NCBI RefSeq assembly: GCF_000724625.1
Contig: NZ_CP007139.1
Span: 2,480,001-2,544,000 of the forward strand
From: Fimbriimonas ginsengisoli Gsoil 348
GTDB lineage: Bacteria > Armatimonadota > Fimbriimonadia > Fimbriimonadales > Fimbriimonadaceae
Direction of reading: 5' to 3'
DNA: 64,000 nucleotides
The notes below the pieces were generated by a model, which did not search any database, was not told where the DNA came from, and saw only the letters and a list, made by a program, of their open reading frames with translations. A program made the position numbers and the translations under genes. Positions 29,008 to 64,000 of the stretch are shown here, in pieces (the first letter of the stretch is position 1; each line of letters opens with the position of its first letter).

Positions 29008-29391
29008 ATGCTTTCGTCGCGTGCCCTCAGTGGAAACTATCTCGGCCTGAAGAAGGTCAGGGAGGGTCGCGAGGACGAGTTGAGCCCGAAGGAGCGCAAG
29101 GAGCTTCAGAAGGCGAAGCCGGACGTCGATTTGGCCCTTCGCGGAGACGGCACCTTTAAGAGGCAGGTCACAGAGGGTACTTGGGAAGTCGAGGGGGAGC
29201 GCGTGGTGTTTAAGCCAACCACGTTTGGCGGCGAGTCGCTTGAGAAAATGAAATCTCGGACCGAGGAAATGGGGCGCACTTTCACCCTCGGGTTCGTCTT
29301 CGCCCCCTTTGAACTGGCGATCGAGGGCGAAGCCCTCGTCACGCCGGACGAGAACGCCATCATCGTTACCGAGTTTCGGCGGCAGTGGTAG
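29008..29391 (+). CDS. Hypothetical small protein
   Basis: This 127-residue protein of unknown family begins MLSSRALSGNYLGLKKV. It has a charged, Lys/Glu-rich first half (ELSPKERKELQKAKPDVDL) and beta-like segments (LALRGDGTFKRQ, GTWEVEGERVVFKPTTFGG, AIEGEALVTPDENAIIVTEF). The G-x-Y and G-T-W-E-V-E-G motifs resemble small lipocalin-like or META-like domains, but I cannot assign one. It is transcribed towards the transporter, with a repeat copy between them. Confidence 0.65.
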   Translation: MLSSRALSGNYLGLKKVREGREDELSPKERKELQKAKPDVDLALRGDGTFKRQVTEGTWEVEGERVVFKPTTFGGESLEKMKSRTEEMGRTFTLGFVFAPFELAIEGEALVTPDENAIIVTEFRRQW

Positions 29392-29437: not shown

Positions 29438-31924
29438 ATGTCGTATCCTATCGGAACCCCGTTCGGACGCTTCGCGGGGCTGGAGTCGCTGTTGATATAC
29501 CCGTCGATCAGCAAGGTCGCTGTTCGCCTCGCCCTCGTAATACTCGGGGTCGGGGCGGCAATGTCGGCACTTGCCGCACCTAAAGTTTCTCTGCGCTTCA
29601 CCGTCTGGGACGGTGACGAGTCGCTCAAGGTCCTTCACCGGGTCGTCGAGCAGTTCATGAAGGAGAATCCGGACATCGAGGTCAAGCTCGAAAGCAATCC
29701 GGATTACACCACCTACCATCAAAAGATGTTGACCCAGTACGCGGGCAACACCGCGCCCGATGTGGCGATGATGGACCCGGGGCACTTCACCGCCCTCGCC
29801 AATCGCGGCGCGCTTCTCAACCTGAACGACTTTATGAAGCGGACGCCCGGCTTCGACATCGGCAAGTACTACAAGCCGATCGTCGACGCTCACTCCCTCA
29901 ACGGGAATCTGTACGTCCTTCCGCGCGATATCGCCCCGTCCGGGTTGGTCTACTACAACAAGGAAGCGTTCAAAGAAGCGGGGATTCCGCTCCCGGACGG
30001 CACTTGGACCTGGGATTTCAAGGAGCGCCCGGAGCTCAAAGAGAAAGATTTTCTTTGGGTGATGCACAAGCTCACCAAGGTCGGCTCCGATGGAAAGCCG
30101 ACCCGCTATGGATACGTCTCCGGGTGGCCAGGGCTTTTCGCCGACACGCTGATGTACTCGTACGGGCTTCAGCCGGCGAACGATAACCAGCACCCGACCA
30201 AAGTGTTGTACGGGTCGCCGGAAATGAAGAAGGTTTACACCCTTCTTCAAGATTTGACGCTGGAGAAAAAGTGGTCCCCCAGCAGCGTCGATGTCTCCAA
30301 TGTCCTCCAACAGAACACGACGTCCCTGTTCGTTAAAGGAAAGGTCGCAATGTTCCAGAACGGTATCTGGGAAGTGCCGAACGTCCGCCGGGACATGAAG
30401 CCGGACTCCAAGGAGTTCTTCGATTGGGACATCGCCATGTTCCCGGCGTACGCCAACGGCCACCGTGGGTACGCCACCGGCGGCTCGGGCTACTGCATCT
30501 TTTCCAGCACTCCGCACCCGGAGGAGTCGTGGAGGCTCTGTCGTTACATGGCCGGTCCCGTAGGGATGCGCGCGATGGCGCAAGCCGGCATCGCCCAGCC
30601 GGCGATCCGGGAAGTCGCGCTCTCCGATTGCTGGATTCCCGGTCCGAACACTCCCAAAGAGCAGCAGTGGCCCCATAACCGGATCATCACCGACACCGAA
30701 GTTCAGTACGTGAATTTTGGCCCGACCGCCGAGATCTGGCCAGAGATTTCGGCGATCATGGGCTCGCGCCAAGATTCGGTCTACAACGGCTTGATGAAGC
30801 CTGAAGAGGCGCTGGGAACCGGTGCGATAGAGTCGCAGCAGCGGCTGGATGCGCTCTTGAAAGAGGAGACGCTCCCGCTTTTCAATTGGGGCTATGGCGT
30901 GGCGCTCGGCGTACTCATCATCGCGGTGGTCTTATTCGCGGTGTATTGGCCGGAGCGAAAGCTGCGGTACACGCGCCGCCAGAAGAAAGAGAACGCGGCG
31001 GCCTATCGGTTCCTCAGCCCATGGCTCATCGGCCTCTGCCTCTTTACGCTCGGCCCGATGATCCTTTCGCTGATCATGAGCTTCCTGAACTGGGACATGA
31101 TCCGCCCTGCTCAATGGCGAGGAGTGCATAACTACACGGAGGCCATGACGGAGGATCCTCGCTTCTGGATCTCCCTGAAAGTCACGGCGTATTACACGCT
31201 GGTTTCTACTCCGTTGGGAATCCTCATCGCCCTTATGCTGGCAATGCTCCTAAACCAAAAGGTGCGCGGCATCCCGCTCTTCCGAGCGATGTTCTATATC
31301 CCGACGATCGCGAGCACCGTTGCCATGACGCTAGTAACGCGTAAGATCATGTCGCCCGACGAAGGGCTGCTAAACACGATCCTGTACAACCCGATCTTCG
31401 AGAAGACGCTCCATCTGGGCAGCCTGCTCAACCAATGGTCCGGCACAAAGCCGGGCGAGCATGTGAACTGGCTGGGTAACGAACACACGACGATGCCCGC
31501 GGTTATCCTCTTATCCCTGGTTGGAGTCGGCGGAACGATGCTGATCTTGCTTGCCGGGCTGCAAGGGGTGCCGCAGTATTACTACGAAGCCGCGACGGTC
31601 GACGGAGCGAGCGCCTGGCGCCGGTTCAGGTCGATCACTTTGCCGATGATCACCCCTTCGATCTTCTTCACGATGATTACGGGCTTCATCGGGTCGTTCC
31701 AGGTCTTCACGCAAGTCTTCGTCATCACGAACGGCCAAGGGGGCGGGCCGAATAACTCGCTTTGGGTCTACATGATCGCGTTGTACAGCAATGCTTTCCA
31801 GACCTTGCGCATGGGCTACGCGGCCGCGCTCGCGTGGGTGCTGTTCCTCATCATCCTTATCATCACTCTTCTCCAAATGCAGGCAAGCAAACGATGGGTT
31901 TACTACGAGGCGGAAGCTAAATGA
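29438..31924 (+). CDS. Fused sugar-binding protein and MalF-type permease of a CUT1 ABC importer
   Basis: One continuous 828-residue frame joins two normally separate subunits. A signal segment (VAVRLALVILGVGAAMSALA) is followed by an extracellular solute-binding protein of family 1 (about residues 48-478): FTVWDGDESLKVLHRVVEQF, YVLPRDIAPSGLVYYNKEAF and FVKGKVAMFQNGIWEVP. A membrane span (GVALGVLIIAVVLFAVYW) and a basic loop (RKLRYTRRQKKEN) then lead into a complete MalF-type permease. The permease carries FLSPWLIGLCLFTLGPMI and the EAA loop EAATVDGASAWRRFRSITLP. The topology is consistent: binding protein outside, extra span, permease N-terminus inside. Its stop overlaps malG (ATGA). The substrate is probably an oligosaccharide. 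No ATPase gene is nearby. Confidence 0.93.
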   Translation: MSYPIGTPFGRFAGLESLLIYPSISKVAVRLALVILGVGAAMSALAAPKVSLRFTVWDGDESLKVLHRVVEQFMKENPDIEVKLESNPDYTTYHQKMLTQYAGNTAPDVAMMDPGHFTALANRGALLNLNDFMKRTPGFDIGKYYKPIVDAHSLNGNLYVLPRDIAPSGLVYYNKEAFKEAGIPLPDGTWTWDFKERPELKEKDFLWVMHKLTKVGSDGKPTRYGYVSGWPGLFADTLMYSYGLQPANDNQHPTKVLYGSPEMKKVYTLLQDLTLEKKWSPSSVDVSNVLQQNTTSLFVKGKVAMFQNGIWEVPNVRRDMKPDSKEFFDWDIAMFPAYANGHRGYATGGSGYCIFSSTPHPEESWRLCRYMAGPVGMRAMAQAGIAQPAIREVALSDCWIPGPNTPKEQQWPHNRIITDTEVQYVNFGPTAEIWPEISAIMGSRQDSVYNGLMKPEEALGTGAIESQQRLDALLKEETLPLFNWGYGVALGVLIIAVVLFAVYWPERKLRYTRRQKKENAAAYRFLSPWLIGLCLFTLGPMILSLIMSFLNWDMIRPAQWRGVHNYTEAMTEDPRFWISLKVTAYYTLVSTPLGILIALMLAMLLNQKVRGIPLFRAMFYIPTIASTVAMTLVTRKIMSPDEGLLNTILYNPIFEKTLHLGSLLNQWSGTKPGEHVNWLGNEHTTMPAVILLSLVGVGGTMLILLAGLQGVPQYYYEAATVDGASAWRRFRSITLPMITPSIFFTMITGFIGSFQVFTQVFVITNGQGGGPNNSLWVYMIALYSNAFQTLRMGYAAALAWVLFLIILIITLLQMQASKRWVYYEAEAK

Positions 31925-32823
31925 GCACGGTGCCAGTGGAACTGCTGTCCCCCGAGGCGGAGCGTTACCGAACCGCGACCAACCGAGCTGAGAAAGCGAA
32001 TGCGGCGGCGCGGGCTTTGCTTTGGCTTCTCCTGTTGGTGGGATCGATCATCTTCTTGATTCCGCTCTACTTGATGCTGGCGATGTCGCTCAAGTCCTCG
32101 TCGGAACTTGCTCACACTTCCTCGTGGGCTTGGCCCCAACAGATCACGTTCGAGAACTTCCAGAAGGTTCTTACCAACCCAAACGCCCCGTTCTTTCTTT
32201 TCTTCAAGAACACGTTGGTGATTGCCTCCCTGGGGACCTTGGGAGTGTTGTTCTCTTCTAGCCTGGTCGCCTACCCGTTCGCGAGGCTGAGGTTCCGAGG
32301 CCGCGATCGGCTGTTCATTCTTCTGCTCAGCACGATGATGCTTCCCGGCGTGGTCACCATGATTCCGACCTACGTGTTGTTCACTCACCTGTACTGGGTC
32401 GACACGATCAAGCCGCTGGTGGTCCCTGCGTTCTTCGGGGGCGGCGCTTTCAACATCTTCCTGATTCGCCAGTTCTTCATGGGAATCCCCCGCGAACTCG
32501 ACGAGGCGGCCCTGATCGACGGCGCTAGTCACGCGACGATTTTCTGGCAGGTCATCATGCCGAACTCGGGCGCGGTGCTGGCGACGGTGGGCATCTTCTC
32601 GTTCATCTTCAACTGGAAGGACTTTATGGGGCCGCTGCTGTACCTGAACAGCCCCGATCGACAGACTCTCGAACTCGGTCTCCGAACCTACCAATCTCTG
32701 CAGGCGGAGCAGTGGCATCTGCTGATGGCCGGTTCGGTCATCGTCGTGATTCCGTTGCTCGTGATCTTCCTTCTTGGTCAGAAATGGATCATCCGTGGGA
32801 TCGCGATGACGGGTGGCAAGTAG
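31921..32823 (+). CDS. MalG-type permease of the CUT1 importer
   Basis: This 300-residue permease has six spans. ALLWLLLLVGSIIFLIPLYLML is the first, FFKNTLVIASLGTLGVLFSS the second, and the EAA loop is EAALIDGASHATIFWQVIMP. It starts inside the stop of the fusion gene (ATGA), so the two are made in fixed ratio. Together with the fused binding-protein/MalF chain it would form the complete membrane complex, lacking only the ATPase. A long hairpin follows the stop. Confidence 0.94.
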   Translation: MSTVPVELLSPEAERYRTATNRAEKANAAARALLWLLLLVGSIIFLIPLYLMLAMSLKSSSELAHTSSWAWPQQITFENFQKVLTNPNAPFFLFFKNTLVIASLGTLGVLFSSSLVAYPFARLRFRGRDRLFILLLSTMMLPGVVTMIPTYVLFTHLYWVDTIKPLVVPAFFGGGAFNIFLIRQFFMGIPRELDEAALIDGASHATIFWQVIMPNSGAVLATVGIFSFIFNWKDFMGPLLYLNSPDRQTLELGLRTYQSLQAEQWHLLMAGSVIVVIPLLVIFLLGQKWIIRGIAMTGGK

Positions 32824-59802: not shown

Positions 59803-60753
59803 ATGGACATGACCGAACTTCACATACACCTCGAAGGCGCCGTGCCGATCAAAGCGATGGCCGAGATCTACCGACGGCACGGCCACCCTGAGCTGGGCGA
59901 CCCTGAGCGAGTGAAGGAGTTCATCCGCTTCGAAGGGTTTTCCGACTTCCTAAGCCGCTTCAAGCACTTCCTCACCTATATGAAGGCGGCGGAAGATTAC
60001 GCTTTTCTCACGGAAGCCGCGTTGGCGAACCTAGCCGACGACGGCATCCGCGACGTCGAACTCACCATTTCACTCGGCGCCGCTTCATTCTTCCACGGCC
60101 TAGACTGGACCCACGTCCTGGAGGAGATCGCGCGCGGCTATTCCGCGGCTCATACCGCTACCGGGATCGAGATGCGGATCCTCGTCGACCTCATCCGAAA
60201 CCACGGTCCGGAAGCCGGCTGGAAAGCCGCCCGCTTTGCAGCCGAAAACCGCCACCTCAATATCGCCGGGATCAACTTGGGAGGTGACGAGGCCAACTAC
60301 CCGGCCGCGCCCTACACCGAGATTTACGCGTTCGCCCGAGACCAGGGCCTCGGGCTCACCGCGCATGCCGGCGAAGCCGCCGGCCCCGAGAGTGTGTGGG
60401 CATGCGTAAACCTGCTGAAGGTAGACCGAATCGGCCACGGCACCCGCGCGGCCGAGGACCCGGCGCTGCTGGAAACGATCGCCGAACGGGGAATCGCCAT
60501 CGAGGCGTGTCCCACGAGCAACGTCCGCACCGGGGCCGTTGCCTCGCTAGCGGATCACCCTCTGCGTAAGTTTCTCGATGCCGGCTGCCGAGTTTGCCTC
60601 AATACCGATGACCCCACTTTCTTCGGCGTGCGGCTGTCCGATGAGTTTCGGCAATGTGCCGAAACCCACCGGCTTTCGGACGACGAGGTCCAATCGCTAC
60701 ACCGCGTCGCCCGAGAGGCCGCGTTTACCGGCCGCCCAGTCCGCTCAATGTAA
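59803..60753 (+). CDS. Adenosine deaminase-family protein
   Basis: This 316-residue enzyme has ELHIHLEGAVP (zinc His pair) at residue 5, TAHAGEAAGPESVW (zinc His and catalytic Glu), VDRIGHGTRA (His), and CLNTDDPTFFG (Asp pair). It converts adenosine to inosine, or acts on a related aminopurine (adenine deaminases share these motifs). ATG 59809 is also possible. Its 3' end overlaps the convergent permease gene by 29 bp. Confidence 0.92.
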   Translation: MDMTELHIHLEGAVPIKAMAEIYRRHGHPELGDPERVKEFIRFEGFSDFLSRFKHFLTYMKAAEDYAFLTEAALANLADDGIRDVELTISLGAASFFHGLDWTHVLEEIARGYSAAHTATGIEMRILVDLIRNHGPEAGWKAARFAAENRHLNIAGINLGGDEANYPAAPYTEIYAFARDQGLGLTAHAGEAAGPESVWACVNLLKVDRIGHGTRAAEDPALLETIAERGIAIEACPTSNVRTGAVASLADHPLRKFLDAGCRVCLNTDDPTFFGVRLSDEFRQCAETHRLSDDEVQSLHRVAREAAFTGRPVRSM

Positions 60754-62467
60754 CCCCTTCGATGAAGTAGCGCTGGCAGAAGAAGAAGAGCGCGAGCACC
60801 GGAATGACGGTCAAAGTCGCAAACGCCATCAGCAAGCCGGGCTCACCCGACCGATCGCCTTGGAATAGCTTCAGCGCATAGCTGAGGGGCATGTTCTCCG
60901 GGGAGTTCACGTAGATCAGCGGCCCCATGAAGTTGTTCCAAGCTCCCACGAACGTCCAGATCGCGATGACGGCGAGCGCCGGTTTGATCTGCGGCATCAT
61001 GATGCTCCAGAACGTCTTCGGATACGAGCAGCCGTCGATCTTTGCCGCGTCTTCCAACTCCAGCGGAATTTGCATGAAGAACTGGCGCAGCAGGAAGATG
61101 TTGAACGCCGACCCAAAGAACGCGGGGACCCAGAGCGGCATCAAGGTATCGATCCACCCGAACGCGCGGAAGATGAGGAACTGCGGCATCATCGTCACCG
61201 CGCCCGGCAACATCATCGTGCCTAGCATCAAGGTGAAGAGGGCGTTCCGGCCGGGGAACCTCATGCGCGAGAAGGCGTAGGCAACGATCGCGGAGCTCAA
61301 GATCGTTCCGATTACCGAGAACACGACGATGACGAGCGTGTTCTTGAGATACACCATCCCGCGGTTCGTCTCCGGCGGAAGGAAGTCGAGCGCGTCCGGA
61401 TAGTTCTGCGTCCGCAATCCAATATGCCGAACCGGATCTAGGTCCGCCAGCGCGAAAAGCGACTGCTGGCCCGCCAGGGAAGGGGGCTGCATGAACTCGA
61501 TCCGCCGCCGCCCATCGTCCATCTCCTCGACGACCTTTCCCACGAAGTCTACGCCGTTAAACTTGCCCCGGAAGACGTTCGCCTCCTTGGGAATCTCTTT
61601 GAGCTGCGACGGCTGCGCGACGAACGTGAGCCCCCGAATTGCCATCGGCTTCTGGATGTCGAGCTTCACCGAACCGTCCGGATTCTTTTCGATAATCGAG
61701 GCCTGCACCGTCTGCCCCTCGTATTGAGCTTCGAACAACGGGTCCTTTTTGTCGAAGAACGGCACCGTTTCCTGAACCCGCGGAATCCAGATGATCCCGT
61801 TGACCGAGCTCATATCGCGGTCCTCTTTAAAGCTCGTAACCAACAGGAAGGCGAACGGCAAGCCGAACACGAAAGCTCCGGCCAAGAGGGCGGCCTGGGC
61901 GACGATCGCCTTACCGTACCCCCGTGTCTGAGCGCCGCGTCCCGCGAGCACCATGGCCACCGTACCGGCTACGGCAAACAGAAGGATCGCAATCGCGGTG
62001 TCGGGCTTCAACCCGATGCCGCCCTTGAGCACCTCGATCTTGCTGCCCGGATCGGATTTATAGAGCCAGGCAAAGACGAGGCCCGCCGCTAGCCAAAGCC
62101 CGGCCGACTGAAGGCGGACCATTCGCTCCTTGGAATCCATCGCCATTCCGGCCTGGAGGGACCGCCAGATCACGAAGACGAGGGCGATAATGCCCAACCA
62201 GGCCGTCCAAGGCATCACGAACCAGACCAGCGGGAATCGCCATACTCCCGGCGCGCTCGCCGAGGTCGCCGCGGCGTCGGGCTGCATCTTCATCAGGCTC
62301 GCCACAACGAAACAGACCCCCGCGGCGACGGCCGTCCCGGCCAGCCCAGAACTGACTCGCCTCTTATCGCCGAACATCTGTGCGATCAGTACGATCGCCC
62401 GAAAGAAGAGGAACCATCCCGCCCAACTCGCAAGCGTCCCTACTGCGTAAACCAGGTTCGCGCTCAC
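60725..62467 (-). CDS. Extended MalG-type permease with extra N-terminal spans and a duplicated insert
   Basis: This 580-residue protein is twice the usual MalG length. The normal C-terminal core is present: NTLVIVVFSVIGTILSSAIVAYAF, EDAAKIDGCSYPKTFWSIMMP (EAA loop) and WTFVGAWNNFMGPLIYV. In front of it lie about five extra membrane spans (residues 4-190). Between MalG span 1 (about residue 210) and span 2 (about 370) is a soluble insert containing two related segments, about 243-273 and 296-326, with F-x-x-x-Y/F-x-G and D-G-x-x-x-L/I in common. GTG 62467 overlaps the stop of the upstream fusion gene (GTGA). The role of the additions is unknown. Confidence 0.88.
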   Translation of the reverse strand: MSANLVYAVGTLASWAGWFLFFRAIVLIAQMFGDKRRVSSGLAGTAVAAGVCFVVASLMKMQPDAAATSASAPGVWRFPLVWFVMPWTAWLGIIALVFVIWRSLQAGMAMDSKERMVRLQSAGLWLAAGLVFAWLYKSDPGSKIEVLKGGIGLKPDTAIAILLFAVAGTVAMVLAGRGAQTRGYGKAIVAQAALLAGAFVFGLPFAFLLVTSFKEDRDMSSVNGIIWIPRVQETVPFFDKKDPLFEAQYEGQTVQASIIEKNPDGSVKLDIQKPMAIRGLTFVAQPSQLKEIPKEANVFRGKFNGVDFVGKVVEEMDDGRRRIEFMQPPSLAGQQSLFALADLDPVRHIGLRTQNYPDALDFLPPETNRGMVYLKNTLVIVVFSVIGTILSSAIVAYAFSRMRFPGRNALFTLMLGTMMLPGAVTMMPQFLIFRAFGWIDTLMPLWVPAFFGSAFNIFLLRQFFMQIPLELEDAAKIDGCSYPKTFWSIMMPQIKPALAVIAIWTFVGAWNNFMGPLIYVNSPENMPLSYALKLFQGDRSGEPGLLMAFATLTVIPVLALFFFCQRYFIEGVTLSGLGGR

Positions 62468-64000
62468 TTCTCCGCCTCGTAGTGGACCCACTTCGGAGCG
62501 AGCCGGAACTGGGTGAAGGTCAGGGCGACGATGATCGCGAATATAAGCCAGGCGATGGCGGAGGCGTATCCCATCTTAAAGAACGTAAACCCGTTTTGGA
62601 ACAAGACGTAGACCGGCGTCAGCATGGAGTTATCCGGGCCGATCGGACCGTCGGATGAGGGCTTCATCGCGTAGGATCGGTCGAACTCCTGCATCGCCCC
62701 AATGAACCCCATAACCGTGTTGAAAAAGATAATCGGACTGAGCTGGGGGAACGTGATCTTCCAGAACTGCTGCTTCGGCGTCGCCCCGTCGATCCCCGAT
62801 GCTTCATACAGCGTCGGCGAAACCCCTTTTAGGCCCGCGAGCCAAAGGAGCATCCCGCTCCCGGCTCCCCAGATCCCTTGCACGATCAGGGCGTTCTTGG
62901 ACCAGTCCGCCGATTGAAGCCACGCCGGCGGCGCAACTCCCAGCCACGGCGTCAGAGTGTGCGTCCAGTACGAGTTGATCAACCCCTTGTTGGCATCCGG
63001 CGTCAGCACCCAGGTCCAGAGCACCGCGCTCGCGATCGTCGGCACGATCGCGGGAATGTAGAACAGGGTTCGGTAGAACCTCATCCCCTTGGCTGCCGTG
63101 TTCAGAAGCAACGCCACGGAGAGGCCGGTAAATAGCCCGAGCGGAACTCCGATCCCTCCAAGGTAGACCGCGTTCCCAAACGCCTTGAAGATCCGGTCAC
63201 GATCCGCGCCGAATAGGTCGGCGAAGTTCTTAAATCCCACCCATCGAGCCTCGTTGAGAACGTCGTACTGAGTGAAACTAAAGAAGAGCGACGCGAGCAT
63301 CGGTCCAAGCGTCAACGCCAAGAAGCCGATGACCCATGGCGAGATAAACAGGTAGGCCCACTTCGCCTCGTTCCGCTCGAGCCTTCCCAGCCGCAGCCGG
63401 GTGAACCATATGATCAGCGCGCAGATGGCGGCGAGGGTGAGGGCGGAGAAGACCTTCGGAAGGATGCCGAGGTCGACGATCGGATGCTGCGCCCGGTCGT
63501 AGAACGCGTCGAGGTCGCGCTGCACCGTAGCCTGACCCGAGAGAAGAGAGTCTTTCGGGGAAGCCTTATGGAGACACGCGGTCTCCAGTGCCGTGGTGTG
63601 CTCATTCCAGAGCATCTGGCCCACAAAGGTCGCCGGCCGGATTCGTCCCACCGGCATCATGTCGATGTGCATCTTCAGCGCGTCGGCGAATTTCTTGTCG
63701 GCCGGACGGAACTGCTGGAAAATGACCGCGTTCGCCTCGCTGCTGGCCGAAACCCCCGGGACGTAGAATCGGCCGCGGTGCTTTTCCCACGCTTGCTGAG
63801 CCTTGGCCTGAAGAACCCGCCCTTCCGTGCTCGTGGCAAATTTGATGTACTCCCACGCGTCCTTCGGATTCTTGGCTCCTTTGGGGATGCAAAGCGAGTA
63901 ACCGCCGATCCAGGTGATGAACTGGTCCTTCTCGTTGGCGAACCGTCCCTTATGGTTGTAACGATCCTCCGGTACGGGTGGGGGCGCGGTGGCGAAATCG
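62464..64000 (-). CDS. Fused sugar-binding protein and MalF-type permease, 5'-truncated
   Basis: The frame is open from the window end (64000) to TGA 62464-62466, 511 codons visible. The first 140 or so residues are the C-lobe of an extracellular solute-binding protein: WIGGYSLCIPKGAKNPKDAW, EYIKFATSTEGRVLQA and ASSEANAVIFQQFRPADK. A membrane span follows (KVFSALTLAAICALIIWF), then a basic loop (TRLRLGRLERNEAK) and a full MalF-type permease. The permease has FISPWVIGFLALTLGPM, FYIPAIVPTIASAVLW and the EAA-like YEASGIDGATPKQQFWKITFP. The arrangement repeats that at 29438-31924. It is the upstream partner of the long MalG gene. Confidence 0.92.
   Translation of the reverse strand, partial: DFATAPPPVPEDRYNHKGRFANEKDQFITWIGGYSLCIPKGAKNPKDAWEYIKFATSTEGRVLQAKAQQAWEKHRGRFYVPGVSASSEANAVIFQQFRPADKKFADALKMHIDMMPVGRIRPATFVGQMLWNEHTTALETACLHKASPKDSLLSGQATVQRDLDAFYDRAQHPIVDLGILPKVFSALTLAAICALIIWFTRLRLGRLERNEAKWAYLFISPWVIGFLALTLGPMLASLFFSFTQYDVLNEARWVGFKNFADLFGADRDRIFKAFGNAVYLGGIGVPLGLFTGLSVALLLNTAAKGMRFYRTLFYIPAIVPTIASAVLWTWVLTPDANKGLINSYWTHTLTPWLGVAPPAWLQSADWSKNALIVQGIWGAGSGMLLWLAGLKGVSPTLYEASGIDGATPKQQFWKITFPQLSPIIFFNTVMGFIGAMQEFDRSYAMKPSSDGPIGPDNSMLTPVYVLFQNGFTFFKMGYASAIAWLIFAIIVALTFTQFRLAPKWVHYEAEK

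Follow-up and report, generated by a model that had tools for sequence, protein, structure and literature searches.

A gene of Fimbriimonas ginsengisoli Gsoil 348, located in the window (the whole stretch of 64,000 nucleotides analysed here), very probably encodes part of a working CUT1-type ABC importer for oligosaccharides whose receptor and MalF pore half form one permanent chain. This reading builds on the reading frame and its domains, the partner gene, the conservation of the fusion, the selection acting on it, the pattern of its topology and the single recognisable ATPase of the genome.

One reading frame encodes a solute-binding domain and a MalF-type permease

The gene is a single open frame on the + strand, running from an ATG start to a TGA without an internal stop, and the ATG of the downstream MalG gene overlaps its stop codon by 4 bases (ATGA). 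The locus comprises the following features:

29438..31924, + strand: fused solute-binding domain and MalF-type permease, 828 aa (frame, Pfam and AlphaFold; single-frame relatives are 50-62% identical over the full length)
29438..29575, + strand: N-terminal signal peptide, residues ~1-46, with probable cleavage near SALA-A (sequence; N-termini of relatives)
29579..30871, + strand: extracytoplasmic solute-binding domain, residues ~48-478, family 1, oligosaccharide-binding type (Pfam SBP_bac_1/SBP_bac_8; fold matches)
30887..30946, + strand: extra transmembrane span, residues 484-503, running out to in (AlphaFold helix; hydrophobic segment in all fused relatives)
30947..31018, + strand: basic cytoplasmic loop WPERKLRYTRRQKKENAAAYRFLS, residues ~504-527 (sequence; positive in the fused relatives)
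31019..31921, + strand: MalF/UgpA-type permease core with six spans and an intact EAA loop at residues 717-736 (BPD_transp_1; UgpA, MalF and GlcT models; invariant residues)
31921..32823, + strand: MalG-type partner permease, 300 aa (BPD_transp_1, 7e-21; start overlaps the stop of the fused gene)

Pfam places SBP_bac_1 at residues 66-376 (3.1e-37) and BPD_transp_1 at residues 594-814 (6.9e-17), and the receptor domain scores 129.7 bits with PF01547 against a cut-off of 26. SBP_bac_1/SBP_bac_8 and BPD_transp_1 are the only Pfam domains in the protein; NCBIfam points to UgpA/MalF, its UgpA, MalF and GlcT models matching the permease each below its curated cut-off. The AlphaFold2 single-chain model (mean pLDDT 86.4, pTM 0.80, 48 aligned sequences) has a complete two-lobed binding domain at residues ~48-478, a helix at 484-503 and permease helices from residue 513, with a linker of about 10 residues between the last receptor helix and the span. 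The earlier note had read a solute-binding protein and a MalF permease fused in one CUT1-type polypeptide, in which a complete binding domain is followed by an extra span, a basic loop and an entire MalF-type permease; frame, domains and model agree with this anatomy. The components found are those of a CUT1 importer: a family-1 solute-binding protein, MalF-like and MalG-like BPD_transp_1 permeases and, elsewhere in the genome, a MalK-type ATPase with a C-terminal OB domain that would pair with them.

The same frame stays open upstream to a TTG at 29309, and a later in-frame TTG at 29492, with GGAG upstream, would leave a signal peptide of about 28 residues, which is more typical. It is possible that TTG 29492 is the true start, which would affect the signal peptide only and leave the fusion the same. 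Promoter and terminator scans gave results near chance.

The fusion is widespread in the Armatimonadota

Reading of the DNA confirmed 89 complete fusions in a single frame, some of them at loci from a separate scan of named genomes. Open reading frames were re-read from DNA for each fusion counted, since the frame lengths in the search tables read through stops and were therefore not used. All but a few of the fusions come from 65 of 121 Armatimonadota genomes, spread over 20 family-level groups, where 65 is a lower bound because the best candidates alone were read. Within the family of F. ginsengisoli itself, every genome (14 of 14) has a fusion.

These relatives bear directly on whether two normal neighbour genes were joined here by a sequencing or assembly error. 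Such an error is conceivable because solute-binding and MalF genes adjoin in most bacteria, as they also do in the split relatives from Armatimonadota and Chloroflexota, but the same single frame recurs in many separately sequenced genomes. The nearest relatives are joined at the same point, as the earlier note had asked to be checked, and no stop or frameshift is found at 30880-30900, where it had placed the possible break; the near relatives read through this point as well. Between close pairs where it could be measured, dN/dS at the junction is 0.09-0.18, looser than in the domains and clearly constrained, and by this measure the junction is translated and under purifying selection. Moreover, a span and a basic loop stand between the two domains and are missing from most split permeases, so the frame is no mere read-through. 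We therefore give the error next to no chance, and the fused relatives, the added span and the selection at the junction support the suggestion that this is a working design.

A few fused genes are broken. The one at L033/L077 (G081) has one in-frame stop within its receptor domain, and an apparent frameshift breaks that of L123 (G005), also within the receptor domain; error and decay are not distinguished in either case.

The genome of F. ginsengisoli, one contig of 5.23 Mb, holds six fused genes. Besides the window gene these are two members of its clade (53% and 42% identity), one gene of a second clade and two very divergent ones. Its 21 SBP_bac_1 genes divide into six within fused frames, 815-890 codons long, and 15 free ones (the listing had 22 rows, two of which are pieces of one fused gene). 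The earlier note's premise that CUT1 importers normally keep a separate receptor needs amending: fusion is common in the Armatimonadota and was already known for MalE-MalF of Bdellovibrio, discussed below. The two very divergent genes (L053:5903-8461 and L054:4236-6710) depart from the others in both domains, and with their unsure placement in the trees they are possibly further independent fusions.

The window itself contains part of a second fused gene and its partner:

62465..64000, - strand: second fused gene, clade B, 857 aa, distantly related, cut by the window end (whole in L056:7465-10038)
60726..62492, - strand (L056:5726-7492): the second fused gene's MalG partner, 588 aa, enlarged by N-terminal spans and a periplasmic insert

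This MalG carries about five extra N-terminal spans and an insertion of about 130 residues between the first and second MalG spans. The added parts had no match in Pfam; a model of moderate confidence suggests tandem small beta barrels, with weak Foldseek matches to tandem Agenet domains. MalG is likewise long in Chloroflexota L046/L047, which encode receptor and MalF as separate proteins.

A small survey of other phyla found split genes at five Chloroflexota loci and one Bacillota locus, and only a solute-binding protein at two Clostridia loci. Annotated plasmid matches had receptor and permease separate except for H18, which on reading proved to be broken up, and the three plasmid loci read as DNA were all split, two of them degraded. 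On two Enterococcus plasmids (L133 and L134) a CUT1 operon adjoins an alpha-galactosidase gene, in fragments on both.

An added span fits the receptor to the permease

With an external receptor and a MalF core that begins on the cytoplasmic side, an odd number of spans must separate the two domains. Indeed, a hydropathy count gives 88 of 89 fusions a single extra span ahead of the permease core; the sole exception is L053, where two spans were counted, the second of which is probably the first core span. The loop after the extra span is net positive in all 89. By contrast, 32 of 36 split permeases have no extra span. The proposal that the extra span restores correct topology is thus sustained across the fused relatives.

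The N-termini of fused relatives resemble signal peptides. Several of them (L009, L102, L109, L116, L121 and others) have lipobox-like motifs ending in Cys, for example LAGC in L009 and L109. In these fusions the motif suggests a lipid anchor besides the membrane span, and the receptor would then be anchored at its two ends.

We propose that the signal peptide carries the binding domain out of the cytoplasm, and that the chain would then cross the membrane once, from outside to inside, and turn at the basic loop, after which the six usual MalF spans would follow with a normal inside N-terminus. The fused MalF would assemble with MalG and a pair of subunits of the single MalK-type ATPase, whose gene lies elsewhere in the genome. 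The one receptor per pore, on its tether of about 10 residues, would capture the sugar, dock and deliver it in cis without a long diffusion step.

Alternatively, the chain might be made as one and cleavage might then separate the receptor from the permease, yielding a free receptor of the kind that other importers of this genome use (15 of 21 SBP_bac_1 genes). Signal peptidase I acts on the outer side of the membrane and needs a hydrophobic segment ahead of its cutting site. The extra span runs from outside to inside, so a different protease would be required, and span and positive loop are kept in all fusions. We regard such cleavage as improbable and retain the permanently tethered receptor.

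Fused clades lie among split importers

Trees of the permease, of the receptor and of the joined domains recovered the same three fused clades, with split Armatimonadota importers interleaved among them. Clade A contains the window gene, clade B has the widest spread and clade C is confined to one family; comparison of the trees indicates that receptor and permease of each fused clade travel together. A single fused clade was rejected on the joined binding and permease domains, where its log-likelihood was 142.6 lower (the printed p of 6e-83 is to be taken merely as very small); with the permease alone, the one-clade constraint was borderline (p-AU 0.0506).

Judged from these trees, fusion or splitting has recurred, with at least three fused clades among split ones. 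Having no root, the trees would fit three fusions or one fusion followed by two splits alike. We prefer repeated fusion to repeated splitting, since other phyla generally have split genes and no remnant of the extra span is seen in most split permeases. On balance, we lean slightly towards the view that CUT1 receptors became joined to MalF on several independent occasions in the Armatimonadota, with one span added each time, and that the phylum as a whole favours a tethered single receptor driven by one shared ATPase, which would then not be the accident of one gene.

A single recognisable MalK-type ATPase and a probable oligosaccharide substrate

The genome has one recognisable MalK-type ATPase (G000:C1:4785237; L136:751-1899), in which OB_MalK and TOBE_2 match the same gene, although an ATPase lacking these domains could escape a domain search. 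It carries the motifs GPSGCGKT (Walker A), LSGGQ and MDEP (Walker B) and lies far from all six fused genes. Bacillus subtilis importers share the ATPase MsmX. With many CUT1 permease pairs and one recognisable MalK, we infer that the pairs must share it, and this ATPase probably drives all the fused and free-receptor CUT1 importers of the genome.

The binding domain matches 5f7v (VIA-align Z 42.6, 386 aligned, rmsd 2.6) and AbnE 6rjy (Z 39.7, 400 aligned, rmsd 2.8) in a fold search that was filled by receptor-domain matches and barely probed the permease fold. By sequence and fold, the nearest receptors are AbnE (arabino-oligosaccharides), Lmo0181 (cycloalternan) and MalE of Xanthomonas citri, and some oligosaccharide is the likely substrate as predicted from these resemblances. 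The neighbouring genes encode an M42 peptidase, an aminotransferase, a metalloenzyme-superfamily protein resembling phosphopentomutase and a beta-lactamase-family protein, and those adjoining the fused gene gave no metabolic enzyme or substrate hint.

This lack of an adjoining enzyme or substrate gene would suit a fusion that is dead for transport and acts as a receptor or sensor. The EAA coupling loop and the permease core are conserved, however, with D722, G723 and A724 of the loop invariant across 48 fused relatives, and dN/dS in the permease part is 0.014-0.10 for related pairs where measurable. The MalG partner is also kept, and an intact MalK is present in the genome. A sensor is thus very improbable, and we hold to the transporting importer.

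Comparison with known systems

In the maltose importer, the standard textbook example, the receptor diffuses freely. Fused and split importers in one genome, probably under the same ATPase, would test the value of a free receptor pool, and the two forms could be compared in capture rate, affinity, receptor excess versus a fixed 1:1 ratio, and how far empty receptors compete with loaded ones. Structural work would also profit from fused complexes, as their composition is fixed. Free receptors tend to exceed translocators in amount (PMC9045158), whereas a fusion forces one receptor per pore; the tethering would alter transport kinetics and remove the free receptor pool, as the earlier note had suggested.

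Canonical CUT1 importers such as E. coli MalE-MalFGK2 and UgpB-UgpAEC and Mycobacterium LpqY-SugABC likewise combine a family-1 solute-binding protein, MalF- and MalG-type permeases and a MalK-type ATPase, but they make the receptor as a protein of its own. Eight spans and a large periplasmic P2 loop characterise MalF of E. coli, whereas the window protein has seven spans and its receptor precedes the core. Span numbers in a 2013 survey of 35 CUT1 membrane proteins ranged only from 6 to 8 (PMC3654945).

OpuA (OpuABC) and GlnPQ resemble the window protein in that a short linker tethers the receptor to the permease; that of OpuA consists of 11 residues and a hydrophobic membrane anchor (PMC11065425; PMC8025302). 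Unlike the window protein, which is without such domains, they belong to glycine betaine and amino-acid receptor and permease families. Their complexes contain two identical permease-receptor chains, whereas one receptor per pore is expected here.

The closest parallel comes from Bdellovibrio. PDB 6FFL is titled 'MalE domain from Bdellovibrio bacteriovorus', and we take the published MalE-MalF fusion to be the importer of this species, which fits that title. The title of Licht et al. 2019 (PMID 30193862), as cited in PMC7756565, gives a single MalE domain fused to MalF, and the fusion is reported to be transport-competent (PMC7756565); a CUT1 receptor-permease fusion is thus known already from one characterised case. 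Like the window protein, it would have a CUT1-type receptor fused to MalF in one polypeptide, with one receptor domain per pore. The 6FFL domain shares the binding-domain fold of the window protein (VIA-align Z 37.4, 375 aligned, rmsd 3.4), but identity over the fold match is 18% and 6FFL is absent among the sequence matches listed at E 0.001. The Armatimonadota fusions differ further in being phylum-wide and in several lineages. Our literature searches, which covered few subscription journals, found no report of an Armatimonadota fusion, and within the literature searched the phylum-wide spread, the recurrence and the presence of free receptors alongside fused ones, all served by one ATPase, look unreported. 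What looks new beside Bdellovibrio is a recurrent, phylum-wide receptor tethered ahead of MalF by about 10 residues and one span.
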